Assembly: GCA_903880015.1 (NCBI GenBank) | Contig: CAIRNS010000001.1 | Coordinates: forward strand, 1 to 64,000 | Origin: an uncultured Elusimicrobia bacterium | Lineage (GTDB): Bacteria > Elusimicrobiota > Endomicrobiia > Endomicrobiales > CAIRNS01 | Reading direction: 5' to 3' | Length of the DNA stretch: 64,000 nt | Shown here: positions 50,637 to 64,000 of the stretch, one piece after another | How the letters are laid out: each line of letters starts with the position of its first letter | Numbering within the stretch: the first letter of the stretch is position 1 | Notes under the pieces: model-generated | Seen by the model: only the letters and a program-made list of their open reading frames with translations | Database searches by the model: none | Told to the model about the DNA's origin: nothing | Position numbers and translations under genes: made by a program

Positions 50637-50672
50637 CGAGGCATTGATGTTTGACGGGAATTGGAGGTCATC

Positions 50673-51746
50673 ATGCTCAATATGCAGGATTTGCTGATGT
50701 TGATGGTCCACAAAAACGCCTCAGACCTTCATATCACTGCCGGCATCTCTCCGGTGCTGAGAATTGACGGAGAAGTTGTACAAACCGATTACGAGAAACT
50801 GACCCCCGACCATTGTCAACGATTAATCTATTCGCTTTTAACCGATACCCAAAAAGAGAAATTTGAGTCAACGAACGAACTTGATTTGTCCTTTGGCATC
50901 AAAGGTGTCGGTAGAGTGAGGATGAATGTGTACCGCCAGCGTGGTTCTGTAGGAGCGGCATTGCGTTCTATATCGCAGAAGATAATGACTTTTGAAGAAC
51001 TCCGGTTACCTCCTGTTGTACACGAAATCATGAAACTGCATAAAGGATTGGTATTGGTAACCGGACCTACCGGTTCGGGAAAATCAACGACACTTGCTTC
51101 ATTAATTAATCATCTCAACGAAACCCGAGCGGGACACATTGTTACCATTGAGGATCCCATCGAGTATGTGCATATTCACAAAAAATCAATAGTCAATCAG
51201 CGGGAAATCGGCTCCGACAGTTTTACCTTTGAAGCAGCGTTAAAATATGTTTTGCGTCAGGATCCGAATATTATTTTACTCGGAGAAATGCGCGACCTTG
51301 TGACCATTGCTTCAGCATTGACACTTGCTGAAACCGGACATCTGGTATTTGCCACACTCCATACGACTGATGCAGCTTCTTCGATTAACCGTATTATTGA
51401 TGTTTTTCCACCCTATCAACAGTCACAGATTCGCGCCCAATTATCGATGACGCTGCAGGCAGTTTTCGCTCAGCAGCTGCTGCCGCGCGCATCCGGTTCC
51501 GGGCGTGTGCTGGCGTGTGAAGTGATGATGATGACTCCGGGCATCAGGAACATGGTCCGTGAAATGAAGATTGAACAAATATATTTGGCTATGCAGACCG
51601 GCGCAAAATACGGTATGCAGACCATGAATCAGTCACTCTATGACCTTTACTCCCGCAGGGAAATACCCTACCAAACCGCGCTTGATGCCAGCACGGATGT
51701 TGACGATATGAAGCGCATCATGCAGAAAACACCCCTCAATAAGTAA
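50673..51746 (+). CDS. pilT: Type IV pilus retraction ATPase PilT
   Basis: 357 residues from the ATG at 50673 with GGAGGT at 50663-50668; an in-frame TTG at 50661 overlaps the ribosome site and is unlikely. Walker A GPTGSGKSTT near 131-140, Asp box and Walker B RQDPNIILLGEMRD, and the His box LVFATLHTTDAASS. The GIRNMVRE motif corresponds to the PilT retraction signature AIRNLIRE. It powers pilus disassembly and twitching. The extension ATPase PilB is not in the window. Confidence 0.94.
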   Translation: MLNMQDLLMLMVHKNASDLHITAGISPVLRIDGEVVQTDYEKLTPDHCQRLIYSLLTDTQKEKFESTNELDLSFGIKGVGRVRMNVYRQRGSVGAALRSISQKIMTFEELRLPPVVHEIMKLHKGLVLVTGPTGSGKSTTLASLINHLNETRAGHIVTIEDPIEYVHIHKKSIVNQREIGSDSFTFEAALKYVLRQDPNIILLGEMRDLVTIASALTLAETGHLVFATLHTTDAASSINRIIDVFPPYQQSQIRAQLSMTLQAVFAQQLLPRASGSGRVLACEVMMMTPGIRNMVREMKIEQIYLAMQTGAKYGMQTMNQSLYDLYSRREIPYQTALDASTDVDDMKRIMQKTPLNK

Positions 51747-51761
51747 CATAAAGGAAACAAC

Positions 51762-52991
51762 ATGCCATTGTTTCGGTATCATGCACGAACTTCGTCAGGA
51801 AATATAGTAACCGCCACCGTAGAAGCACCAGATAAACGCGGTGTGAGCGAGAAATTGCATAGCCAGAAATTGATACTCATCAATGCGAGCATTGTTACGG
51901 CAAACCCTTTCGTTGCATTTTTAAAAAAAATCAATCCATTAAAACCAAAAGTATCAGCACGAGAACTGGTGTTGTTTTCTCGGCAGTTCTCTACGCTCGT
52001 TACCGCAGGCATTCCCATCGTCCAAGGTTTGACTATATTGATGGATCAGGCGGAAACGCCGCTGTTCAAAAAAGTAATCGCTGCTTTACGCGCAGATATC
52101 GAACAGGGAATTTCAATCACCGACGCCATGAAAAAGCACCCCGAAGCATTTTCCGAGCTCTATGTATCGATGATACGGGCAGGGGAATTGGGCGGCATAT
52201 TGGATGCAATAATGGATCGGGTTTCCGCATACCTTGAATCAACGGAAGAACTCAAAGGAAAAGTTAAGGGAGCGATGGTTTATCCTGCCGTGATTTCTTG
52301 CGTAGCAGGAGCGGTTACACTTTTTCTTCTCGTTTTCATTATCCCGACTTTTGCTGGTATTTTTTCCGGATTCGGCGCTCAGTTGCCACTGCCTACACGA
52401 CTCATGATCGGATTATCAAATATACTGCGTCATTATTTCCCTGCATTAATCGTTTTTTCAATCGCTACATATTTTGGCATGAAAAAATTCCGTTCAACAG
52501 AAAAAGGAAAATTTTTGACAGACACATACCTATTAAAACTTCCGATCTTCGGGTTGTTATTGAAAAAAGTAGCCGTTGCAAAATTCAGCCGAACATTGGG
52601 GACATTGATAAAATCGGGGGTTCCCATACTCCAGGCGCTTGATACGGTTGGTAAAACCAGCGGCAACCGCGTCATTGAACAGGCTATTGATACTGCCCGT
52701 AAATCGGTTAAAGACGGAGAACGCATGGCGGAACCGCTGCGCAGAACTGCTGTTTTCCCGCCCATGGTTATTCAGATGATTGCTATCGGCGAAGAAACAG
52801 GCACACTTGACACCATGCTTAACAAGATAGCTGATTTTTATGACCAGCAAGTCGATGTATCCGTAAAAGCGTTAACGAGCATGATTGAACCGTTGATCAT
52901 GGTAGTTATGGGTGTTGTCGTCGGAGCTATTGTCATGTCGATGTTTCTGCCTATGTTTGAGCTGGGGGAATTGGCAAGCAGAGCAGGATAG
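51762..52991 (+). CDS. pilC: Type IV pilus inner-membrane platform protein PilC
   Basis: 409 residues. Two T2SF domains, each with the conserved FSRQFSTLVTAGIPIVQGL and FSRTLGTLIKSGVPILQAL stretches, and three membrane helices (the last near MIEPLIMVVMGVVVGAIVMS). It is the cytoplasmic membrane platform that contacts PilB/PilT. Lies 15 bases after pilT, as usual. Confidence 0.94.
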   Translation: MPLFRYHARTSSGNIVTATVEAPDKRGVSEKLHSQKLILINASIVTANPFVAFLKKINPLKPKVSARELVLFSRQFSTLVTAGIPIVQGLTILMDQAETPLFKKVIAALRADIEQGISITDAMKKHPEAFSELYVSMIRAGELGGILDAIMDRVSAYLESTEELKGKVKGAMVYPAVISCVAGAVTLFLLVFIIPTFAGIFSGFGAQLPLPTRLMIGLSNILRHYFPALIVFSIATYFGMKKFRSTEKGKFLTDTYLLKLPIFGLLLKKVAVAKFSRTLGTLIKSGVPILQALDTVGKTSGNRVIEQAIDTARKSVKDGERMAEPLRRTAVFPPMVIQMIAIGEETGTLDTMLNKIADFYDQQVDVSVKALTSMIEPLIMVVMGVVVGAIVMSMFLPMFELGELASRAG

Positions 52992-53004: not shown

Positions 53005-53033
53005 TTGACACAATTGAAATGAATTGATAAAAT
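53005..53033 (+). promoter_or_regulatory. Strong promoter of the pilin gene
   Basis: Perfect TTGACA (53005-53010), 17-base spacer, TAAAAT (53028-53033) preceded by TGA (extended -10). The leader is about 33 bases and carries a strong AAGGGGGTGA ribosome site. Three ATTGA copies at 53004, 53013 and 53023 are spaced about one helical turn apart. Confidence 0.85.
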
Positions 53034-53072: not shown

Positions 53073-53558
53073 ATGAAGAAAGCAAAAGGTTTTACGCTGA
53101 TTGAACTGATGATAGTTGTTGCAATTATCGGTATTCTTTCAGCAATTGCTATACCTAAGTTCGCTGATCTCATTCGTAAATCAAACGAAGGATCCACGAA
53201 AGGCAATTTAGGCGCCATTCGCAGTTCTGTTTCCATTTATTACGGAGAACAGGAGGGATGGTTCCCTGTGCCGTCAGCAGGTGGTCAAGCGAGCGTTGCC
53301 GGATCACTGGGTGCGATACTGACTATGGAGAACGGAAAGTACTTAAAGGATCTTCCGCCCTCCTATTGTCCGCCGTATCATCCTAAATCTGCGGCAATGG
53401 CGACCGTTACCATATCCAGCGCCAGCGAGGCTAATGCGGCTGATGCAGGACTATGGGGATACAAAAATGTTAATGACGGAATCGGAAGACAGTGGGGAGA
53501 TGTATGGGTGAATTGCACCGATACTGATTCACGGTCTACCGTGTGGGGCGGGTACTAG
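53073..53558 (+). CDS. pilA: Type IV pilin (major pilin candidate)
   Basis: 161 residues. Short leader MKKAKG followed by FTLIELMIVVAIIGILSAIA is a class III signal: cleavage after Gly6, N-methylation of Phe7, and Glu at mature position 5. A hydrophobic helix forms the pilus core. The C-terminal globular part is of the short GspG-like sort and has two cysteines (PPSYCPPYHP and VNCTDTD) that could form a disulfide. Strong promoter, strong ribosome site and following terminator show high, separate expression. It is the only pilin in the window; whether it is the major pilin is inferred from these expression signals. Confidence 0.9.
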   Translation: MKKAKGFTLIELMIVVAIIGILSAIAIPKFADLIRKSNEGSTKGNLGAIRSSVSIYYGEQEGWFPVPSAGGQASVAGSLGAILTMENGKYLKDLPPSYCPPYHPKSAAMATVTISSASEANAADAGLWGYKNVNDGIGRQWGDVWVNCTDTDSRSTVWGGY

Positions 53559-53564
53559 TTTCCC

Positions 53565-54404
53565 GTGGAATTATTTAACGGGGGCCTTCTTGATGTACTC
53601 AAGGAGGCCCCTGTTTTTTTTACGATTATTTATTTACTTGCCGTATTCATTTTTGGCTGTTTGATTGGAAGTTTTACCAATGTCTGCATGTATCGCATCC
53701 CGTTAGACCAATCTATCTGCCACCCGCGTTCACACTGTACATCATGTAACACCTTGATTTCATGGTACGACAATGTCCCGATTTTCAGCTATATAGTGCT
53801 CGGCAGAAAATGCCGCCATTGCGGCTCGCCTATTTCATGGCGCTATCCTTTCGTTGAATTCCTGACGGGAACTGCATTTTTTTTAATTGCATACTACTAT
53901 TCTTTGCAAATGATCGTACCCTTTTTTCTCTATTATTCTTTTGTCATGATTTGTATTTCCGGCATTGATATATCTTCTCAGATAATTCCCGATGTATTTT
54001 CACTTTCCCTGATTGCTGTCGGCATCGGCAGCAGTATATTCAACCCATTACTGGGGAACGGTCCCGGTGAACGGATTTTCAATTCATTGTTGGGAATGGG
54101 AGCCGGTGGGGGAATATTACTTCTTCTCGGCATTTTAGGAACATGGATGTTTAAAAAAGATGCAATGGGCGGCGGCGATTTAAAACTGCTTGCGGGAATA
54201 GGTGCATTTATCGGTTGGCATAAGGTATTTTCAACCCTTTTTATTGCATCGGTATTGGGAACAATTATTGGAGTTTACCTGATACTTTCCAAGAAAATTG
54301 AACGCCGCGGCTATATACCGTTCGGTCCTTTTTTGGCTCTGGCTGGCTATATAAATCTGTTTATTCCTGACCCCTTGATAATTCTATCCCAGCTTTGGTT
54401 TTAG
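53565..54404 (+). CDS. pilD: Prepilin peptidase / N-methyltransferase
   Basis: 279 residues from the GTG at 53565. Membrane protein with about 7-8 helices. The cytosolic loop has two CxxC pairs (CTSC, CRHC), the methyltransferase/zinc loop. The aspartyl protease aspartates lie in SGIDISSQIIPD and in MGGGDLKLLAGIGAFIGW. It cuts and methylates the prepilin. The GTG start is the only plausible one: the frame is closed by the pilin TAG at 53556 and no later start keeps the first helix (about 16-38). It begins six bases after the pilin stop, in the same frame. Confidence 0.9.
   Translation: MELFNGGLLDVLKEAPVFFTIIYLLAVFIFGCLIGSFTNVCMYRIPLDQSICHPRSHCTSCNTLISWYDNVPIFSYIVLGRKCRHCGSPISWRYPFVEFLTGTAFFLIAYYYSLQMIVPFFLYYSFVMICISGIDISSQIIPDVFSLSLIAVGIGSSIFNPLLGNGPGERIFNSLLGMGAGGGILLLLGILGTWMFKKDAMGGGDLKLLAGIGAFIGWHKVFSTLFIASVLGTIIGVYLILSKKIERRGYIPFGPFLALAGYINLFIPDPLIILSQLWF
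53581..53621 (+). terminator. Strong intrinsic terminator inside the 5' end of pilD
   Basis: A 13-pair stem formed by GGGGCCTTCTTGA (53581-53593) and TCAAGGAGGCCCC (53599-53611), with one G-U pair and the five-base loop TGTAC. It is followed by TG and eight T residues (53614-53621). It ends pilin transcripts, yet lies within codons 6 to 19 of pilD when pilD starts at the GTG 53565. Some polymerases must read through to express pilD. Confidence 0.9.
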
Positions 54405-54471: not shown

Positions 54472-55602
54472 ATGGGTTTTACTATTTCAACCTTTTCATT
54501 ACCCCATCTTCCCTTCTTAAAACCTCGCGACACATTCGCTATAGATATAGGAACATCCTCGATAAAAGTACTTTATTTAAAAAAATCTGGCAGCCGTTAT
54601 GTGATACAATCGTGGGGAATACTGCCAATTCTTGACTCCGGATCTGAGTTATCTCCACAGGACCGGAAAGGGATGATTGTTGCACGGCTTGCCGAATTTA
54701 TCGCCAGGGAAAAAATTACCACTAAAAATATAGTAAGTTCTGTTTCAGGTAATCAAGTGGTTGTGCGGTATGTAAAGTTTCCCGCACATTCCCGTGAAGT
54801 ACTGATGCGAACCATTCAGTTTGAAGCTGAACCCTATATACCCTTCGATATAAATGATGTTGATCTGGGCATTCACATCATTGGCAACATGGTTGAGGAC
54901 GGTCAAAAAAAATTCGATTCAATCTTAGTTGCCGCTAAAAAAGATATCGCACAATCGCGGCTCGAAATATTTTCCGATTTAAATTTACGCCCAATAATCA
55001 TTGATGTTGACGCATTTGCCTTAGCCAATGCGTATGAACTTTCCTCGGACCCCTCCATTATTGAAACTGTCCTCTTGGTCAATATAGGGGCGGCGATTAC
55101 TAATCTTGCTCTTATTGACAATCACATCCCGCGCGTAGTGCGGGATATTTTTATCGCGGGGAATTCTTTCACCAAATCAATCCAAAAGAATATTTCCGGA
55201 GATTTTGTGTCAGCTGAAATAGGAAAGGCCCGCTGTGGACTGCTGATTTCTGTTGAGGACAAAGAGCGAATGCTGGCTGATGACCAAAGAGAAGCGCTTC
55301 AGGTTTCATCCGCATTAATCCCCGTTGCCCGTGAACTGATATCTGAAATACAAAAATTGATAGATTTTTATGTTGGTCAAAATTCCGACAAAGTGGTCAG
55401 CAAATTACTGTTATCCGGCGGATCAGCAGCACTCCCAAACCTGGATACCTATATTCAGCAGGAGTTGAAGATTCCGGTAATCAAATTTAATCCGGTTGCT
55501 TCTTTGTCGGGCGGTGATCGTATTGACAATGACGACGCGATCCGCATGGCTGTCGTTGCCGGGCTTGCAATCCGGCAGGAAAACGATTCAATAAAGCAAT
55601 AA
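54472..55602 (+). CDS. pilM: Type IV pilus assembly protein PilM
   Basis: 376 residues, actin-like ATPase fold: DIGTSSIKVLYLKKSG phosphate-1 motif, VSGNQVVVRYVKFP, LVNIGAAITNLALI and the C-terminal LLSGGSAALPNL. It is cytoplasmic and binds the N-terminal tail of PilN to link the alignment complex to the motor. First gene of pilMNOPQ, all spaced 1-38 bases apart. No Shine-Dalgarno box precedes it, and the promoter lies very close. Confidence 0.92.
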   Translation: MGFTISTFSLPHLPFLKPRDTFAIDIGTSSIKVLYLKKSGSRYVIQSWGILPILDSGSELSPQDRKGMIVARLAEFIAREKITTKNIVSSVSGNQVVVRYVKFPAHSREVLMRTIQFEAEPYIPFDINDVDLGIHIIGNMVEDGQKKFDSILVAAKKDIAQSRLEIFSDLNLRPIIIDVDAFALANAYELSSDPSIIETVLLVNIGAAITNLALIDNHIPRVVRDIFIAGNSFTKSIQKNISGDFVSAEIGKARCGLLISVEDKERMLADDQREALQVSSALIPVARELISEIQKLIDFYVGQNSDKVVSKLLLSGGSAALPNLDTYIQQELKIPVIKFNPVASLSGGDRIDNDDAIRMAVVAGLAIRQENDSIKQ

Positions 55603-55604
55603 TT

Positions 55605-56168
55605 ATGATTATTAAAATCAACATTTTGCCGGCAGATAGAATACCTAAAGAGGAGCGAACGGAATATCTTATCGCGGGATATGCCTTCTTTGCACTACTT
55701 GTGGTGATAGCGCTATCTCATTATGCGGTTATTTCCCATTCATATAATAAACTCCATGCGAGGATGGAAATTGCCGAGGGGCAGTTAAAGAGTTTTCAAA
55801 CTATCGTCAACAAAGTTGACATCCTGCAATCGACAAAGATTGCACTCGAGACAAAAAGCATCCTTATCAACTCATTGCTCACCGGCGGCGTTTTGTATCC
55901 CCGATTCATGGAATCCCTCGCCAAGAGAACACCGCAGGGGATTGAGATACAAAGCTTGAACACCGTTTCTCGTGGGGATGGCGGCATTGACGCTGTGCTC
56001 CTCGCTGTGGCGCTCGACAATTATTCTATTGCCGATTTTATCAGCACACTGATGTCAGATCCGGATTTTTCACTCATTGAATTGGGTGCAATTTCTTCTA
56101 CCGGCGGCTCACTATCACCAGGGGCAACTTTTCGACTGACATTTTCGTACAATAGGAAAAAGACTTAA
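55605..56168 (+). CDS. pilN: Type IV pilus assembly protein PilN
   Basis: 187 residues. Starts IIKINILPADRIPKEERTE, where the INxLP motif is the PilM-binding peptide. One membrane helix follows (AGYAFFALLVVIALSHYAVI), then a periplasmic coiled-coil and a ferredoxin-like domain. It forms the PilNO alignment complex. It follows pilM by 2 bases. Confidence 0.88.
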   Translation: MIIKINILPADRIPKEERTEYLIAGYAFFALLVVIALSHYAVISHSYNKLHARMEIAEGQLKSFQTIVNKVDILQSTKIALETKSILINSLLTGGVLYPRFMESLAKRTPQGIEIQSLNTVSRGDGGIDAVLLAVALDNYSIADFISTLMSDPDFSLIELGAISSTGGSLSPGATFRLTFSYNRKKT

Positions 56169-56171
56169 TTT

Positions 56172-56717
56172 ATGACAAAAAGAATAATTCAAAACATCAT
56201 ATTGATGCTGCTGATTTGCGGAGGGTTATCCTATGTTTTTTTTAGATTTATGATACTCCCTCTTAACACAAAATATGCGGCGGCAAAAGAGAATCTCATA
56301 AAAGCTGAAACAAAAGTTGCTGAAATGAAACAGCGGGCAGTTGAATTACCCCGCTTGGAAGCTGACATGAAGCTGCTGCAGCAGCGAGTTTCAGATCTTG
56401 AAAAGTTACTTCCCCGAGAGAAAGAAATCCCACAATTATTGCGAACAATAACAAGAACCGCGCAGAAATATCAAATTAAGGTTAATCAAATTACACCACA
56501 GCCTATTGTACCCCTGCAGAACTACAGTGAAATTCCCTTTCAATTCACGGTTCAAGGAAGTTATCATGCTATTGCTTTATTTTTAACTGATATGGGGCAA
56601 GGTCCTCGCGTCATGAGCGCTCGAAATATCGTCTTTTCACCGGCTCCTTCGGTAAAGGGTTCGCCTGTCACGATTAACGCCACTTTTGTACTGGTGACAT
56701 ATACATTTAAAGGATAA
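56172..56717 (+). CDS. pilO: Type IV pilus assembly protein PilO
   Basis: 181 residues. One N-terminal helix (IIQNIILMLLICGGLSYVFF), a long coiled-coil (about 40-90, KAETKVAEMKQRAVELPRLE) and a C-terminal ferredoxin-like fold with YSEIPFQFTVQGSYHAIALF. It pairs with PilN in the periplasm. Three bases separate it from pilN. Confidence 0.88.
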   Translation: MTKRIIQNIILMLLICGGLSYVFFRFMILPLNTKYAAAKENLIKAETKVAEMKQRAVELPRLEADMKLLQQRVSDLEKLLPREKEIPQLLRTITRTAQKYQIKVNQITPQPIVPLQNYSEIPFQFTVQGSYHAIALFLTDMGQGPRVMSARNIVFSPAPSVKGSPVTINATFVLVTYTFKG

Positions 56718-56718
56718 C

Positions 56719-57177
56719 ATGCAATTAAAACTTGTTATGATACTTTGTGGTGCACTTTTTTTGACGGGATGCGGGCAGGAAGATGTTCCGATAACGCCTA
56801 ATCAGATAATTAAATTGCCGGCAATTAATTTAAAAGTTACTGCCGGCAAGAGCATTGGTGAACGTTACGAATATGCGGGAGACATATACCGCGATCCGTT
56901 CATGTCGATCAACAGAGAAGGGATGTCTGTCTCAGGCACCGATGAGATTGTTATTCCCAATATTGGCTCGCTAAAGCTCAAGGGGTTAATGTCTGAAGGA
57001 AAACAAAAGATTGCCATTTTATCTAACGGTGTTTTTGGGTATGTATTGAAAGAGAAGTTGCTTTACGATAGTCGCCAGCGCCTTATTCCCGGATTTACGG
57101 GTATTTTCAAAGAAGGAAGCGTCATTATTGTTGCACCCGACAAATCGACAAAGGAAATCCATCTGCGTGAACGGTAG
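56719..57177 (+). CDS. pilP: Type IV pilus lipoprotein PilP
   Basis: 152 residues. Signal peptide ending in a lipobox (LFLTGC), then a disordered stretch and a small beta domain (YRDPFMSI, then LKLKGLMSEGKQKIAILSNG) that contacts PilN/PilO and the secretin. Typical short PilP. It overlaps nothing and follows pilO by one base. Confidence 0.86.
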   Translation: MQLKLVMILCGALFLTGCGQEDVPITPNQIIKLPAINLKVTAGKSIGERYEYAGDIYRDPFMSINREGMSVSGTDEIVIPNIGSLKLKGLMSEGKQKIAILSNGVFGYVLKEKLLYDSRQRLIPGFTGIFKEGSVIIVAPDKSTKEIHLRER

Positions 57178-57215: not shown

Positions 57216-59156
57216 ATGAATAAATTATTAATCAGTTTTATTGTAGGGGGGGTAATGCTCTCCACATGCCCTGTAGCTATTGCAGCTAACCCGTGGGTAA
57301 CTCTTAATAAGGTCAGTATTGAATCCAATACCATTACCGTACATCTTACCGGTGCACCGAAATACCATTCATTTACCGTATCCAACCCTGCACGGGTTGT
57401 CGTTGAATTTGCTGATACGCTTAATGATTGCAGACAGAAAGAAATTATGGTAACCGGAGATCTCATTAAACGGATACGCATCGGACAATTTAAGAATGAT
57501 CCATTAAAAATATCCCGTGTGGTAATCGATGTGACTAAACTCGGAGAATTTGAAGTAAAATCTGTCGGCAATACCGTATTAATACTATTCAAAACGGATG
57601 CTGAACAGACAATTGCAGTACCTGAAAATAAAGTTATAACGGAAAAATCGGCCGAAGTCCCCAAGAGCAAAGCTCAGCCGATTGCGAAAGATCCTGGGTA
57701 TGAGCAGGCAACAGCCGTAGCGGCACAAACAAAAACTATCCCAACGGTATATGCGGAACCGGTTTCAACATCCGTCCCGTTTGCTTTATCAACTACACCC
57801 GCCAGCACCGTAAAAAAAGTATCGCCAATCAAAGAAACACCTCAGACAACGACTGCCATTAAAACTCAATCCGCAGAACAATCGTCATTAAAAACGGTCT
57901 TATCTAAGAAACTGATTACCTTTGACTTTGAAGAAGCGGATATTCGTGATGTTTTCAGAATACTGGCTGTTAAAAGCGGCATAAACATTATTTATGGACC
58001 GGATGTAGCAGGAACACTCAGTTTGCGCCTGGACAATGTCGCTTTTGACAAAGCGTTTTCCACGATATTGGCGATTAAAGGATTGGTCAGCATAGACGAG
58101 GGGCCGGGCATTTTACGGGTGGTGACAACTCAAAAATTGTCTGAAGAACGCGCACAAGCGGTTACATTTACTAAAATATTCCCTTTAAACTATGCTAAAG
58201 CTGATGAAATTAAATCCAACCTTGATTCGATCCGCAGCGCTGAGGGACGACGTGGAAGCATTTCCGTTGATCCCCGGACGAACAGCTTGATTGTCACGGA
58301 CACCCCAGAAGGTTTTATTTCTCTGACGGCAATAATCGGAGAACTTGACAGAAAACCAGCACAAGTCATCATTGAGGCAAAAATTGTTGAAGTAGTGCTC
58401 AACAAGAGCTTGGACATGGGGATTCAGTGGCAGTATGCAAATACCGTAAAAAATGATTCAAACATACAAATTTACAATGGCGGCTCACAAGCAGCTACCT
58501 CTAACAATGCTCAAGGTCCCAATGCCGTACAAGGAGCAAATATCGTTACACCACTTTCAACAATTCAAGGGGGGACAGGTGTAACTTTTCCCGCATCTGC
58601 GGTTTCAGGACAGATATCCTCGATTGCTTTTGGGCTGGTTGCTAACGAAACGCGCTTAACGGGTATTTTAACCGCACTGGCACAGAAAGGGCTTTCAAAG
58701 CTTCTTTCAAGCCCCAAAGTGACAACCATCAACAATCAGGAAGCCAAGATAATGGTTGGCCAGAAAATTCCTTATACTACAACGACCGTCAGCGTTAGTG
58801 GAACAACTCAGCAAACTAACTTTCTTGACGTCGGCATTAAACTTACGGTGACGCCGACCATCAACAGTGATCAGAAAATTACACTCAATGTGCATCCCGA
58901 AGTAAGTTTATACGTGAGATCTGACCCCGCAGGACCAGTCATCGGCACTCGGGAAGCGATAACAACGGTCATAGTCAACAATGGAGAAACAGTAGTCATC
59001 GGCGGATTAATTACTGATGAAGACCGCAAATCGGCAACCATGGTCCCCCTACTGGGGGATTTACCTATAATCGGGCATTTGTTTCGCCAAGATATAAAAT
59101 CAAAAGACCGCACTGAATTGCTGGTATTCATAACACCTCAAATCATAAACAATTAA
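57216..59156 (+). CDS. pilQ: Type IV pilus secretin PilQ
   Basis: 646 residues. Signal peptide (LLISFIVGGVMLSTCPVAIA). One AMIN domain (about 28-130) binds peptidoglycan. A Pro/Thr/Ala-rich linker follows. The STN domain (FDFEEADIRDVFRILAVKSG), secretin N-terminal domain (SISVDPRTNSLIVTDTPE) and C-terminal secretin barrel (ITTVIVNNGETVVIGGLI, ending LVFITPQIINN) complete the gated outer-membrane channel. It closes the pilMNOPQ operon. Confidence 0.94.
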   Translation: MNKLLISFIVGGVMLSTCPVAIAANPWVTLNKVSIESNTITVHLTGAPKYHSFTVSNPARVVVEFADTLNDCRQKEIMVTGDLIKRIRIGQFKNDPLKISRVVIDVTKLGEFEVKSVGNTVLILFKTDAEQTIAVPENKVITEKSAEVPKSKAQPIAKDPGYEQATAVAAQTKTIPTVYAEPVSTSVPFALSTTPASTVKKVSPIKETPQTTTAIKTQSAEQSSLKTVLSKKLITFDFEEADIRDVFRILAVKSGINIIYGPDVAGTLSLRLDNVAFDKAFSTILAIKGLVSIDEGPGILRVVTTQKLSEERAQAVTFTKIFPLNYAKADEIKSNLDSIRSAEGRRGSISVDPRTNSLIVTDTPEGFISLTAIIGELDRKPAQVIIEAKIVEVVLNKSLDMGIQWQYANTVKNDSNIQIYNGGSQAATSNNAQGPNAVQGANIVTPLSTIQGGTGVTFPASAVSGQISSIAFGLVANETRLTGILTALAQKGLSKLLSSPKVTTINNQEAKIMVGQKIPYTTTTVSVSGTTQQTNFLDVGIKLTVTPTINSDQKITLNVHPEVSLYVRSDPAGPVIGTREAITTVIVNNGETVVIGGLITDEDRKSATMVPLLGDLPIIGHLFRQDIKSKDRTELLVFITPQIINN

Positions 59157-59200: not shown

Positions 59201-60643
59201 ATGAAGACTAGTATACCTCTATTTAAAACCCATTTTTCTCGTGGGCTTTTTTATTTTATTGTTGCCGCTCTGGCGGTGTCAGTTATTTTGCGTTTTGCGT
59301 GGAATACTCCGTACATGCACCTGTTTACTGCTTCGATTATTGCGGCTTTTATTGCGACAATAGCGAGTCAACAAGTTTACTTTTCGTGGAAACATGAAGG
59401 CATAGAGATAGCTTGTCTTACAACCTGTTGCATATCCGCCTTCGGTGTGTTTAAGTCGTCTGCTGTTCACGGCGGACTCCTTGTCCTTCTCAACGCTGCC
59501 CTTCTCGGTTATCTTGTCAGGTTTGTACTTCGTGACGACCGTAAGAACATCGATACAGCCATAGTCTTCATCGGGCTGCTGGTCGCTATAGAGATGATCG
59601 CGTACTCAGTATTGCCGAATATGTACCTACCAATCATTATCAACCCCAACATCTGCGCTGGGTACCTTATCCTTTGTTACCTTCTTGCTGTTCCCCGATT
59701 AAGAGATACAACCTTCCGCGTCGTTGCAATAGTACTAATAACCGGACTTTTACTGACAAAATCGCGCGCTGCTATTGCCATAGTATCATTGTGTACCGCC
59801 GGCTATTGGTGGCAATCAATGAAATCATCGGTTCGGTTGGCAATACTCGGATTGATGACGGCTGGTGCTGTAATCGCTCTTTCAACAGCAACCATAGATG
59901 TATCGTTGCTGAATCGCATTGCATGGTGGCAAACAGCGACGCGCATGTTTCTTACTCATCCTTTGACAGGTATTGGATGGGGCAATTTTGGAAGCGAATA
60001 TTTATTGTGGAGAACCGTGGTGACTGAGAATTCATTGTATGCACATAATGTAGTACTGCAAGTTCTTGCTGAATCAGGCATTGTGGGATTCACCGGTTGC
60101 CTGGCTTTTTTTATTGTTCGGATGAAGAATATTCCATTGCGTTCTCCCCATGTGCTTGCTGTAGGGGGATTTCTTCTCTACAATCTCTTCGATTACTCAC
60201 TCTACATCCCTTCACATTTATTTACTGTTTTTGTTTTACTGTACAGCGCTGATATTACCCAGGATACTGAGCCACAAAAAGCTACAAAACCTCTATCTCT
60301 ATTCGGAAAAACAGCCATTTTGACTGTGGTATTATTGTGTGCGGGTTTTTTGACTACAAACAGCATTACGCAAGGAAAACAGTGTGCCACCCGAGCACAA
60401 TCATATTATAAGACCTATACCACAAACGGGGATAAGTATCTTCTTGCACAGGCAATCGAACAACAGGAGCTAGCTGTACGCGCGTCTCCCGGTTCGGCTC
60501 CTTTGCGGTCCGATCTGGCATGGCTGTATATGGTTGGGGGCAATAAGAAAACGGCAAAACATGAAATTATGGAAGCAATACAGCGTGACCCTCTCAACAG
60601 CGGATATCAGAGTTCATTACGCCAATTTATGAATCAAAAATGA
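59201..60643 (+). CDS. O-antigen ligase / O-oligosaccharyltransferase family membrane protein
   Basis: 480 residues, about 11 membrane helices. The conserved large periplasmic loop of the Wzy_C/O-antigen ligase family is visible around HPLTGIGWGNFGSEYL and AHNVVLQVLAESGIVGFTGC, with the LTKSRAAIAIV segment before it. The C-terminal 90 residues look like a TPR-type helical tail (TNGDKYLLAQAIEQQELAVR, LRSDLAWLYMVGGNKKTAKH). Known members join lipid-linked glycans to lipid A or to protein (PglL and PilO-type enzymes glycosylate pilin). Its place just after pilQ suggests pilin glycosylation, but cell-surface polysaccharide is equally possible. ATGA overlap with the next gene. Confidence 0.75.
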   Translation: MKTSIPLFKTHFSRGLFYFIVAALAVSVILRFAWNTPYMHLFTASIIAAFIATIASQQVYFSWKHEGIEIACLTTCCISAFGVFKSSAVHGGLLVLLNAALLGYLVRFVLRDDRKNIDTAIVFIGLLVAIEMIAYSVLPNMYLPIIINPNICAGYLILCYLLAVPRLRDTTFRVVAIVLITGLLLTKSRAAIAIVSLCTAGYWWQSMKSSVRLAILGLMTAGAVIALSTATIDVSLLNRIAWWQTATRMFLTHPLTGIGWGNFGSEYLLWRTVVTENSLYAHNVVLQVLAESGIVGFTGCLAFFIVRMKNIPLRSPHVLAVGGFLLYNLFDYSLYIPSHLFTVFVLLYSADITQDTEPQKATKPLSLFGKTAILTVVLLCAGFLTTNSITQGKQCATRAQSYYKTYTTNGDKYLLAQAIEQQELAVRASPGSAPLRSDLAWLYMVGGNKKTAKHEIMEAIQRDPLNSGYQSSLRQFMNQK

Positions 60644-62322
60644 AACGCGAATATACCCCGCTGATTATCCTGATACTTGCCATACTCGTTTTTTTGAGCC
60701 CCGTACTCTTTACCAGCTCAACTTATTTTCTTCGTGACCTAACCTATATATTTCACCCATGGAGAACCTTTACGGCGGAACTCGTCCAGAGGGGGGAGAT
60801 GCCTCTCTGGAACCCGTATATTCATTGCGGTATGCCACTGCTGGCAAACTGGCAGTCCGCCGTTTTCTACCCGCTCAGCTTGCCGTTCTATTTCTTTTCT
60901 TTTGTGACGGGATTGAAACTCTTTCAGGTCGGGCATCTGCTCATTGCCGGCATTTTTGCCTATTTATGGGGACGATCTGTACCATTAAATCGCTGGGCGT
61001 CAGCCGGTGTTATGATTGTATGGGTATTCAACGGATATATGATTACTCGTCTTGAATTTCTCAGTCATTACGGTGTTGATGTGTGGTTATTTGCGGCGCT
61101 ATTATTGAGCCGCAATCCGCTATTATTAGCACTATCCCTTGCTATCGCTTTTTTTGCTGGACATTACATAATCGGGCTGGTCGCCGCGGTGGCTATTATA
61201 TATCGGACACTACACAACCCAGTATGGTTACGAGCGACCATGAAGTATTGGTTAATATTTTGCACAATTTTTTTCAGCATTATTGCCTGTCAATTTCTGC
61301 CAACCATTGGACTTATCCTTCAAACATCCCGATTTAAGGAAGGATATTCTATAGCCATTGCAATGGCATATTCAGTTACTTTCTCCGACATAGTGCATCT
61401 GATTAATCCGTTTCTTTCAACTTCATCGATTCCTGCTATCGTTGGAGAGAAGTTTTCTTGGGCGACATCTTTTCATATCGGATTTTGCGCCTTTCTTTGC
61501 GGCATCTTGGGATTCGTGCGTTCTAAAATGACGACATTGAAAGTTTTTTCCGGCATTTTATTTTTAGCGGGCATACTGCTTGCGCTAGGGAATCACTCAT
61601 TTTTTTATCCGTGGTTGTATCGTACCGTTCCCATTATATCCACCATCCGCTATCCGACACAATTCTTGCTGCTGACTATAATCGGAAGCGCAATAGTAAC
61701 TGGACTTGGGTTACAGCAATTACGAAGGGCAAAGTTTTTTGTTGTGGTTATACTCATTGAACTCATCGTTGTATCATGGAATTTTCAAATAACGGCCCCG
61801 CATGCATATTTTTATTCATCATCACCATTGGTAAAATATCTTCAGGAACATAGTAATCAGGGGACAAACCGCTTTATCCTGAGCCCTGGTACCGAAACTG
61901 ATCGTAATTTTGTCGGAACCACTGCCCAAGATGCATGGCAATCAGCTCGCGGCATGCTGTATAATCTTTCCTGTATGCCGTATCATATTGCCAATGCGTA
62001 TGGTTCAGGAGAACCATTAACAAATAATTTGTTAGAAACATCAATCGACACAGCATACCGCGCATCAAGCGCCACTGAAGCAATGCCATTGTACCGCCGT
62101 CTCGGAATACGCTATTTAGTATGCAAGAATATCCTTCCTCCGAGAACCGGCTATATCCCCATTATGCCTCATCTCTATGAATTGCCGGGGCCGACTGCAA
62201 CTGAGAACTATCAGATATATCGACCACCTAGTTTTCGCGCAGGGGCAGCGATAACCATAATGATGCTTATTATGTTAAGCTTCATTGCTTTTCGCTTCTT
62301 AACTCGCTCAAAAATCACATGA
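60640..62322 (+). CDS. YfhO-like GT-C membrane protein (paralogue 1)
   Basis: 560 residues, about 12 membrane helices. The first periplasmic loop reads FLRDLTYIFHPWRTFT and then RGEMPLWNPYIHCGMPLLAN, a YfhO/GT-C-type signature with D33 as the possible catalytic aspartate. The C-terminal soluble part is about 150 residues. YfhO relatives are thought to transfer sugars from polyprenyl-phosphate carriers. It overlaps both neighbours by four bases and shares its first-loop sequence with the next gene, so the two arose by duplication or a family expansion. Confidence 0.7.
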   Translation: MKREYTPLIILILAILVFLSPVLFTSSTYFLRDLTYIFHPWRTFTAELVQRGEMPLWNPYIHCGMPLLANWQSAVFYPLSLPFYFFSFVTGLKLFQVGHLLIAGIFAYLWGRSVPLNRWASAGVMIVWVFNGYMITRLEFLSHYGVDVWLFAALLLSRNPLLLALSLAIAFFAGHYIIGLVAAVAIIYRTLHNPVWLRATMKYWLIFCTIFFSIIACQFLPTIGLILQTSRFKEGYSIAIAMAYSVTFSDIVHLINPFLSTSSIPAIVGEKFSWATSFHIGFCAFLCGILGFVRSKMTTLKVFSGILFLAGILLALGNHSFFYPWLYRTVPIISTIRYPTQFLLLTIIGSAIVTGLGLQQLRRAKFFVVVILIELIVVSWNFQITAPHAYFYSSSPLVKYLQEHSNQGTNRFILSPGTETDRNFVGTTAQDAWQSARGMLYNLSCMPYHIANAYGSGEPLTNNLLETSIDTAYRASSATEAMPLYRRLGIRYLVCKNILPPRTGYIPIMPHLYELPGPTATENYQIYRPPSFRAGAAITIMMLIMLSFIAFRFLTRSKIT

Positions 62323-64000
62323 AACGATTACCTCTGTTCATTACGATCTTATTCGTCATCATTGTCATGCTTTTTTTTCCTATTTTGCGCTCCCCGGGTA
62401 AGGGAGTAGGCAATTTCGGTGATATATACTTGCATTATTATCCGCTGAAACATTTGGTTAAAGAACAACTTATAGCCGGGAAAATGCCGTTGTGGAACCC
62501 ATATATTTTTGCCGGCGAACCGCTTATGGCTAACCCCCAATCCGCTGTTGCTTACCCATTTTCGATACTATTTGATATTTTTCCATTAGCAACTGGGTTT
62601 ACTCTTTTCTTCATGATACACCTATTATTGGGCGGCATTGGTATGTATCTGCTACTGGCACATACGCGGCTTTCGGCAACTGCATGTATAGTGGGTGCCC
62701 TTAGTTACGCGTGTTCTTCTTTTCTGATATCAAAAACTGCGGCGGGGCATCCGGTGGCGCTATCAGGATATATATGGCTGCCTTTTATTGTACTGGGTGT
62801 TTTGAGGATCAAGACCTCTTTATTATCAGCTGAATCATGTCTATTTGTCATGAGCTTATCGTATCAAGTTCTTTCAGGACATACATTCCCTGTCTATATT
62901 TCATTGATTGTTTTGGCAATGATGTTGGTGAGTTATAAAAGATCACATCTCAAAGAAACCATGGTGTTATGCGGCGCTGTGTTTCTTCTTTGTGCATTTC
63001 AACTGCTCCAGACTTTTGAACTCTCCCGATTAATTGAGAGGGGAAACTGGATACAATTGGCTCAACAATATTCTTTGTCAATAAAGGATTTTATTACTGT
63101 AGTTATGCCTAATTTCTTCGGCAATAGCATAGACGGAACATATATATTTCCCGATCATCCGTCTTACTATTTTGAGAAGAATACCCTCTATTTCGGCCTT
63201 ATTGCTTTTCTACTTTCGATGATGGGACTATTCAACTCCTTGCGCCGCCGTGCATGGGGACTGCCCGGGCTTCTTCTGTTAGGGATCATACTGGGACTGG
63301 GATTCCATACAGCTCTATATCGATTACTATATATTGCTGTTCCCGGCATTGACTTTCTTCGGGTACCCGCGCGCTTTATGGCCATAGGCATATTTTCTCT
63401 TGTTATTTTGGCGGCCCAAGGGTGGGATCAGTGGTTCAAAAAAAGTGCTCACTGGTTTAAAGGATTGTTGCTAATACTGGTTATAGCTGATTGCATGTGT
63501 GTGAACGCTAAATTTCTATATCCCGGCGTATTTGACCGTTATCAGAAGAAGAATGAACTGCTCACTACGCTTGACCCGCTACACCGAATAATCACAAATT
63601 CCGACACTATCGCGGCAAACAAATCAATGCTCTATCACCATTACAATCTAAACGGCTATGAAGCGATATTTCTTGAAGATTTTGTCCGTTATATGGGTTT
63701 GCAGGAAAGAAGAATATTTTCTTCGACCGGATTAGCACGGACAAATATTTCTTCCGCTCTCTCCCGGGGATTTTCGGTATCGACGACGATTAATACAGAG
63801 GAAGGGAAATTAGTGGTCACTTCTTTGCCCAACGCTTTACTGCGTATCTTTGTTGCACAGAAACTAAAAACTTCAGCAGAGATGAGCATTGCCGAGCAAC
63901 TTACATGGCTACAAACCGCTGATAAAGCCCCCAATCAGGAGTTATTGGTATCATCAGTGCCCAAAGATTTCCCGTTAGTCAGCTCACCGGCAGACATACT
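62319..64000 (+). CDS. YfhO-like GT-C membrane protein (paralogue 2), cut by window end
   Basis: Read from the ATG at 62319, the frame is open to the window end (560 residues seen, stop not reached). Starts MKRLPLFITILFVIIVMLFF. The first loop NFGDIYLHYYPLKHLV and GKMPLWNPYIFAGEPLMAN match paralogue 1 at the PLWNPYI and G-PL-AN positions, with D35 where paralogue 1 has D33. Multi-helix body, then a C-terminal soluble part as in paralogue 1. Membrane glycosyltransferase of unknown donor and acceptor. It begins by ATGA overlap with paralogue 1. Confidence 0.7.
   Translation, partial: MKRLPLFITILFVIIVMLFFPILRSPGKGVGNFGDIYLHYYPLKHLVKEQLIAGKMPLWNPYIFAGEPLMANPQSAVAYPFSILFDIFPLATGFTLFFMIHLLLGGIGMYLLLAHTRLSATACIVGALSYACSSFLISKTAAGHPVALSGYIWLPFIVLGVLRIKTSLLSAESCLFVMSLSYQVLSGHTFPVYISLIVLAMMLVSYKRSHLKETMVLCGAVFLLCAFQLLQTFELSRLIERGNWIQLAQQYSLSIKDFITVVMPNFFGNSIDGTYIFPDHPSYYFEKNTLYFGLIAFLLSMMGLFNSLRRRAWGLPGLLLLGIILGLGFHTALYRLLYIAVPGIDFLRVPARFMAIGIFSLVILAAQGWDQWFKKSAHWFKGLLLILVIADCMCVNAKFLYPGVFDRYQKKNELLTTLDPLHRIITNSDTIAANKSMLYHHYNLNGYEAIFLEDFVRYMGLQERRIFSSTGLARTNISSALSRGFSVSTTINTEEGKLVVTSLPNALLRIFVAQKLKTSAEMSIAEQLTWLQTADKAPNQELLVSSVPKDFPLVSSPADI

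Follow-up and report, generated by a model that had tools for sequence, protein, structure and literature searches.

The DNA studied here, referred to as the window, is the stretch of 64,000 nucleotides at positions 1-64,000 of contig CAIRNS010000001.1 (assembly GCA_903880015.1) from an uncultured Elusimicrobia bacterium (CAIRNS01, Endomicrobiales). At its right-hand end, a trio of genes follows the type IV pilus genes pilMNOPQ. The first encodes a protein with a Wzy_C domain and a tail resembling tetratricopeptide repeats (TPR), and the second and third encode the paralogous GT-C-type membrane proteins YfhO1 and YfhO2. Sequence beyond the window was read from locus L036 (contig 59001-79000). 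All three open reading frames (ORFs) lie open on the plus strand, neighbours overlap by 4 base pairs (bp), and the first begins 44 bp past the end of pilQ (Table 1). Because of these overlaps and the short gap, the trio and pilMNOPQ are likely to share a single transcript. The original prediction described this layout correctly, in that it placed the trio directly behind pilMNOPQ, called the first gene O-antigen ligase-like with a TPR-like tail, and noted a PLWNPYI motif in the two paralogues, which is present exactly in both.

The order of genes was examined in relatives at two levels. Within the class, 95 genomes were searched with family profiles, and PilQ orthologues were accepted at scores above 390 bits. 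This gave 16 orthologues, while ten genomes of family f6 carry only shorter secretins (195-236 bits). Three of the 16 pilQ loci end at a contig edge (G060, G065, G066); in all 13 loci whose contig continues, a Wzy_C gene is next to pilQ. In G001, this gene is divided between two contigs, beginning at the end of C54 and continuing on C88, the reading frame is broken in G061 and G068, and the Pfam score in G093 is 31.6 against a cut-off of 31.7. The YfhO pair follows Wzy_C in seven of the class loci (G000-G004, G093, G094). In G003 and G004, the two YfhO genes are separated by an asnB gene. A YfhO1 homologue (E ≤ 1e-30) is encoded by 15 class genomes and is located at the pil genes in 8; in G059 (family f7), it lies between pilD and pilM, i.e., inside the pil operon.

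At the level of the phylum, 88 of 247 genomes encode a PilQ orthologue (E ≤ 1e-90), 72 of them outside the class and representing 40 genera. One pilQ locus was taken for each of these 40 genera, and the downstream sequence was read in six frames. In 31 of the 40 loci, pilQ has a Wzy_C gene on its own strand whose start is no more than about 1.1 kb away; the distance is 3.8-6.5 kb in four (three in f12, one in f15), and no Wzy_C gene was seen downstream of pilQ in five (two in f20, one in f21, two in f22). All six profile-matched genes that were tested score above the Pfam Wzy_C cut-off, and the ORF behind pilQ in L282 has no Pfam match. As some of the stretches stop early at a contig end or a chosen cut, the counts for the YfhO pair are minima: at least 13 loci have the YfhO1 type, at least 11 have two YfhO types, and at least 10 combine Wzy_C with two YfhO types, some of these with intervening genes. 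Among the first neighbours of pilQ is a GT2 gene (CsbB/ArnC-like, 241-274 bits) in f19 (3/3), f20 (2/2), and f17 (1/2). Most of the pilQ loci read in the phylum thus have Wzy_C behind pilQ, frequently accompanied by the YfhO pair, and the trio does not lie mostly in polysaccharide clusters without pilus genes, the pattern that the original prediction had named as speaking against it.

A peculiarity of family f16 (L258-L266) is that two different Wzy_C genes stand in tandem behind pilQ in 9/9 genera by profile. These are possibly a polymerase and a ligase, or else two transferases.

The genome of the window has six Wzy_C genes in 1.8 Mb. At this density, chance would place the start of one, on the same strand, within 1.1 kb of the end of any given gene in roughly 0.2% of cases. 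This is a rough figure that ignores relatedness; since the loci are related by descent, we claim no exact probability. Near the five Wzy_C genes of this genome other than the one in the trio, no pil gene was recognised. The genome also has a second pil-like locus (L085, C10:1-12000), as does G004 (L086, C28), which encodes pilin-like proteins, a PilM-like protein, and a secretin about 425-431 amino acids long. Wzy_C had no match at this second secretin locus in 2/2 genomes. In Omnitrophota (L007-L013), no Wzy_C gene was noticed behind the secretin when ORF lists were read; these loci are weak controls, as no profile was run and the secretins are only 27-33% identical and maybe not orthologous. 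Judged from sequence and gene order, a link between the trio and the pilus is strongly supported.

The Wzy_C gene passes the Pfam model PF04932 with 51.2 bits (cut-off 31.7), and PF04932 is matched by 15/15 members of the alignment of its relatives (E ≤ 1). The TPR tail of the window protein stays below the Pfam cut-off (TPR_19, 16 bits versus 25) and is clear in the relatives, where TPR_2 and TPR_8 are each matched by 10/15 (E ≤ 1). R239 and H282 (residue positions here and below are those of the window proteins) occupy the catalytic places in an alignment to the structures 9rmk and 7tpg. Both residues are present in 34/34 readable out-of-class genes from 35 loci. In WaaL, the catalytic residues are R288 and H338, and in PglL they are R298 and H349 (passages of PMC3643930).

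The Wzy_C family profile matches PDB entry 9rmk, named "Oligosaccharyltransferase", with E = 1.9e-11 over profile positions 160-507, running into the TPR part. The match to 7tpg, a polysaccharide polymerase/ligase that we take to be WaaL, has E = 2.5e-7 and covers positions 191-321 only. The TPR-like repeats of the profile match many unrelated TPR proteins. When the TPR part was removed, the values became 1.6e-6 for 9rmk and 7.4e-5 for 7tpg. The preference for 9rmk is therefore modest and comes partly from the repeats.

A midpoint-rooted tree of Wzy_C proteins was read in part; it was made without two duplicates, one spurious match, L155, and the own-genome paralogues of L004 and L005. Within the order of the window, the genes of f1-f5 and f6 cluster together, and one f6 duplicate clade of seven genes was not seen at pilD. 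As the deeper branches of f9-f11 are unresolved, no claim is made that the class genes form a single orthologous group.

YfhO1 and YfhO2 are 28% identical to each other. As is typical of the GT-C fold, both have an acidic residue in the first loop, which we would place on the outer side of the membrane based on the sequences: D33 of YfhO1 is conserved in 8/8 aligned family members and in 13/13 genes of the 40-genus set, and D35 of YfhO2 in 5/5 and 10/10, respectively. The term "YfhO-like" used in the original prediction holds for the wider family, as relatives match PF09586. It does not hold in the same way for YfhO1 of the window, which has no meaningful Pfam or NCBIfam match, including PF09586, PgfM1, and PgfM2. 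At a lax threshold (E ≤ 10), 5/8 members of the YfhO1 family match PF09586. In a rescan at E ≤ 0.01 (cut-off 28.5), the scores were 70 bits for f7 and 30 bits for f11, mainly from the C-terminal part, and the f3 protein had no match. Relatives of YfhO1 also match PgfM2 (3/8) and PgfM1 (2/8) in the alignment scan at E ≤ 0.01, with a best E value of 1.4e-7. Compared with its relatives, YfhO1 of the window is missing about 40-130 residues from the C-terminal part, a stretch that in the relatives has a PGWK-like motif; this is probably why it has no Pfam match. For YfhO2, one of five family members matches PF09586 (19.7 bits, below cut-off), and the PTPS_related score of the window protein (Table 1) is likewise below cut-off. 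A search of PDB sequences with the YfhO1 and YfhO2 families gave no informative match. The same genome encodes a third, solitary YfhO-type protein of 789 amino acids on C19 (L041 8012-10381), around which no pil gene and no query glycan gene was recognised.

In the genomes of family f6, pilMNOPQ is missing from this place. Wzy_C stands directly behind pilD in 31 of the 44 f6 loci that were fetched, and the fullest gene order is coaD-pilT-pilin-pilD-Wzy_C-AglD-like-GT2b-WecA-like. The cluster downstream of the trio contains close relatives of both the GT2b gene (354-362 bits in five loci) and the WecA-like gene. In six f6 loci, no pilD or pilin gene was seen beside Wzy_C (L165, L169, L171, L179, L181, L185); L179 has just 0.5 kb of upstream sequence, and L165 has a divergent PilT-type gene beside Wzy_C. 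Other f6 loci are cut by contig ends (L182, L186, L199, L200, L201), fragmentary (L203), or a weak unrelated match (L206). In several small genomes of genus g6, Wzy_C is split or fragmented (L198, L193, L203), which suggests decay, and weaker YfhO matches exist in f6 genomes. In a RecG tree of 418 columns, the L014 genome, whose RecG is partial, falls inside the phylum of the window (support 0.993) in a clade with four members of that phylum and apart from four Omnitrophota. This phylum is therefore Elusimicrobiota. Family f6 is tentatively taken to be Endomicrobiaceae.

Beyond position 64,000, a convergent gene for a GT2 protein of 320 amino acids overlaps the end of the YfhO2 gene. It matches the solved ArnC structure 9hwj (E = 5e-55) and 5eke, glycosyltransferase sll0501 (E = 1e-24), which is presumably GtrB. 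Among NCBIfam models, it reaches 206 bits for the ArnC-like PRK10714 and 148 bits for PgfS, both below the model cut-offs. From these matches, the protein is annotated as a putative polyprenyl-phosphate-sugar synthase of the ArnC/PgfS kind. It is followed by genes for a radical SAM protein, an asparagine-synthase-like amidotransferase (asnB), a GT4 protein, a uridine diphosphate (UDP)-sugar dehydrogenase, another GT2 protein, a protein of 673 amino acids without a Pfam match, a WecA-like transferase, and a flavin adenine dinucleotide (FAD) protein. The WecA-like and cytoplasmic glycosyltransferase genes are about 4-13 kb downstream of YfhO2. The glycosyltransferases that the original prediction had suggested seeking here are thus present. 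It had also suggested flippases, and no GtrA-type flippase was found among the proteins of the window cluster that were scanned. Relatives have a gene for an LPG_synthase_TM (AglD-like) membrane protein nearby.

Table 1 Features of the pilus-trio region. Positions are those of the window unless marked L036

Feature	Position	Strand	Basis
PilT-type retraction ATPase	50661-51746	+	Pfam T2SSE, 144 bits
PilC inner-membrane platform protein	51762-52991	+	Pfam T2SSF, 230 bits
Type IV pilin, candidate acceptor	53073-53558	+	Pfam N_methyl; alignments
PilD prepilin peptidase	53565-54404	+	Pfam A24_N_bact, Peptidase_A24
pilM	54472-55602	+	Pfam PilM_2
pilN	55605-56168	+	Pfam PilN
pilO	56172-56717	+	Pfam PilO
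pilP	56719-57177	+	position only
PilQ secretin with AMIN domain	57216-59156	+	Pfam Secretin, 167 bits; Secretin_N; AMIN
Wzy_C-TPR protein, putative pilin/pilus O-oligosaccharyltransferase, 480 amino acids	59201-60643	+	Pfam Wzy_C PF04932
YfhO1, GT-C-type membrane glycosyltransferase (YfhO/PgfM kind), 560 amino acids	60640-62322	+	PF09586 and PgfM matches of relatives
YfhO2, second GT-C-type paralogue, 669 amino acids	62319-64328 (328 bp past the window; L036 3319-5328)	+	PTPS_related, 24 bits
Further GT4-like protein	L036 17514-18671		downstream of FAD protein

Upstream of the trio, the pilus genes are named from Pfam matches, except for pilP, which gave no PilP match in a Pfam scan and is named from its position. 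The pilin has a Ser/Ala/Gly-rich stretch following YYGEQEGWFP in the alignments. This insert was considered as a marker of genomes with the trio and dropped, as its length varies and G006, which is without the trio, has a short version; 11 of the 21 intended pilins were missing from that alignment. A promoter-like site at 53005-53033 is just 5' of the pilin gene (TTGACA, 17, TAAAAT, with TG; 11/12). Such sites are not above chance in the region (23 found, 29.0 expected). Terminator-like sites at 59229 and 59260 in the start of the Wzy_C gene were judged to be chance occurrences (19 found, 13.3 ± 4.0 expected).

We propose, with a probability of roughly 55%, that the trio provides the membrane half of a glycosylation module dedicated to the type IV pilus and most likely acting on the pilin, which would be the glycan acceptor. 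The division of labour set out here is a proposal from the predicted enzyme types. A WecA-like enzyme and cytoplasmic glycosyltransferases would assemble a glycan on its polyprenyl carrier, flipping across the membrane would come next, and the ArnC/PgfS-like GT2 protein would supply polyprenyl-phosphate sugars. On the outer face, YfhO1 and YfhO2, with the Asp of the first loop as catalytic residue, would lengthen or decorate the glycan, whether this is still lipid-linked or has already reached the protein. Transfer of the glycan to Ser or Thr would fall to the Wzy_C-TPR enzyme, with R239 and H282 at its active site, while the pilin, or a different pilus subunit, is emerging from the membrane. 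The TPR tail of this enzyme may serve to hold either the acceptor or the platform formed by PilMNOP.

A number of observations weigh against this proposal. The PglL motif PF15864 had no match in the window protein (E ≤ 0.1) and is not among the families matched by the 15 Wzy_C members (E ≤ 1). Hence, the protein is not a PglL proper. Of the possible PglL/PilO-type pilin glycosylation in the original prediction, the pilus link is strongly supported, and the enzyme types and catalytic residues fit. A third Arg, reported to be important in WaaL and PglL, has at best R189 as its counterpart, which is present in just 6/35 out-of-class genes. Structure predictions were of low confidence, with a predicted local distance difference test score (pLDDT) of 42.7 for Wzy_C alone and 37.5 for the alignment of YfhO1 with the in-window part of YfhO2. 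No YfhO1 was seen in the stretch read for 27/40 out-of-class loci, G007 has a Wzy_C gene but neither the pair nor a YfhO1 match, and YfhO1 is away from the pil genes in 7/15 class genomes that have a homologue (families f9 and f10). In the f18 pair tested, neither YfhO-type gene (L269) matches Pfam YfhO. Downstream, the asnB, GT4, UDP-sugar dehydrogenase, and WecA-like genes would equally fit a surface polysaccharide.

Family f6 adds to these points. Among the 31 pilD-linked Wzy_C genes, 15 have lost both R239 and H282 (L168, L180, L183, L184, L187-L195, L197, L202), mostly with K and D/E/G instead, so in this family the gene can be retained in the absence of normal catalysis. Another 13 keep both residues, 2 lost only the His, and 1 is split and unaligned; the alignment used ORFs of at least 250 amino acids, and L198 and L203, being split or fragmentary, dropped out. 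The double losses occur in genera g6, g12, g13, and g21, and g10, g11, g14, and g17 keep both residues save for the His of one g10 gene. Both are also kept in 4/6 readable f6 loci without pilD. In addition, the place behind pilD could have been inherited passively in f6 through the loss of pilMNOPQ.

The glycosylation proposal can be taken one step further, and here we are only tentative: across Elusimicrobiota, the Wzy_C-TPR enzyme, transferring en bloc, and the Pgf-type YfhO pair might form a hybrid machine, encoded as an extension of pilMNOPQ, with one shared pilus protein as its target. The f6 transferase would then be in part catalytically dead and yet retained in the pilin-pilD operon.

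Among the alternatives, the trio may belong to a surface-glycan locus. Wzy_C would then be the ligase or polymerase of a lipopolysaccharide-like or exopolysaccharide glycan, the YfhO proteins would decorate the polymer, and the pilin would remain bare; the pil neighbourhood would be kept by inheritance or by co-regulation, as pilus and exopolysaccharide cooperate. The genes downstream form a WecA-initiated polysaccharide pathway, the Wzy_C profile also matches 7tpg, and tandem second Wzy_C genes in several families look like a polymerase with a ligase. Furthermore, YfhO and CsbB decorate teichoic acids in Gram-positive bacteria (passages of PMC8035078). We nevertheless consider this explanation, the main rival, less likely, as the place behind pilQ is kept over many families and behind pilD in f6, the f7 YfhO1 is inside the pil operon, and the other five Wzy_C genes of the same genome are without a recognised pil neighbour.

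Less probable still, the YfhO pair and the PgfS-like GT2 protein would alone glycosylate a pilus protein sugar by sugar, as in a Pgf-like system, and Wzy_C would serve another glycan or be a non-catalytic part of pilus assembly. The PgfS and PgfM matches and the position of the f7 YfhO1 are consistent with it, as is the persistence in the f6 operon of Wzy_C genes without both catalytic residues. However, Wzy_C is linked to pilQ more widely than YfhO1 (31 versus 13 of the 40 loci), and its two catalytic residues are kept in every readable out-of-class gene. A chance neighbourhood in this genome, for which nothing more speaks than the general abundance of glycosyltransferases, is refuted by the 31/40 and 13/13 observed against the roughly 0.2% expected.

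Most of what is known of pilin glycosylation comes from a few proteobacteria, in which it alters phage binding, adhesion, and immune recognition. TfpW, the pilin arabinosyltransferase of Pseudomonas, is a membrane glycosyltransferase encoded beside pilin genes, and it is a single GT-C enzyme that is not known to have a Wzy_C partner. The PglL/PilO (TfpO) enzymes resemble the first trio protein in their Wzy_C domain, the conserved Arg and His, and their place among pil genes. In contrast to these, the trio protein is without PF15864 and has a TPR tail, and its gene is behind pilQ (pilD in f6), often with two YfhO-type GT-C enzymes. In passages of PMC3643930, 21/31 pglL genes are described as adjacent or close to pilin genes, and Pseudomonas PilO is listed as also being without the PglL motifs.

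The Pgf system of Streptococcus mutans (PgfS, PgfM1, PgfM2) likewise has one ArnC/PgfS-like GT2 protein and two related GT-C-type membrane proteins. PgfS, PgfM1, PgfE, and PgfM2 modify the adhesin Cnm, and loss of PgfM1 or PgfM2 alters or abolishes this modification, which is likely a glycan (passages of PMC5856776). The Pgf acceptor is thus a surface adhesin. In contrast to the Pgf system, the YfhO pair is found in a genome with a type IV pilus secretin and is joined by a Wzy_C gene. Moreover, the GT2 gene is convergent and outside the operon here, and YfhO1 of the window does not match the PgfM models. The CsbB/GtcA/YfhO systems also combine a GT-A enzyme making a C55-phosphate-linked sugar with a GT-C protein of the YfhO family, but their acceptors are teichoic acids (passages of PMC8035078).

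Titles and abstract openings surfaced from the open-licence literature mention no pilin glycosylation in Elusimicrobiota. The authors of PMC8809381 call it puzzling that termite-gut Endomicrobium retain pilD and pilins although they do not have a full pilus, and the term "glycosyl" does not occur in that paper. A passage of PMC11257099 gives pilins as the only appendages of Endomicrobiaceae.

The pili of Elusimicrobiota may carry a sugar coat made by a machinery so far undescribed in the phylum, in much of which the proposed glycosylation module is a constant extension of the pilus operon. The trio would pair two enzyme classes known from separate systems, a Wzy_C transferase and GT-C enzymes of the Pgf/YfhO kind. 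If f6 corresponds to Endomicrobiaceae, the findings bear on the puzzle of pilD and pilin retention without a full pilus; and should the hybrid machine prove real, it would give a lead on why f6 lineages retain pilins without the full pilus machine.

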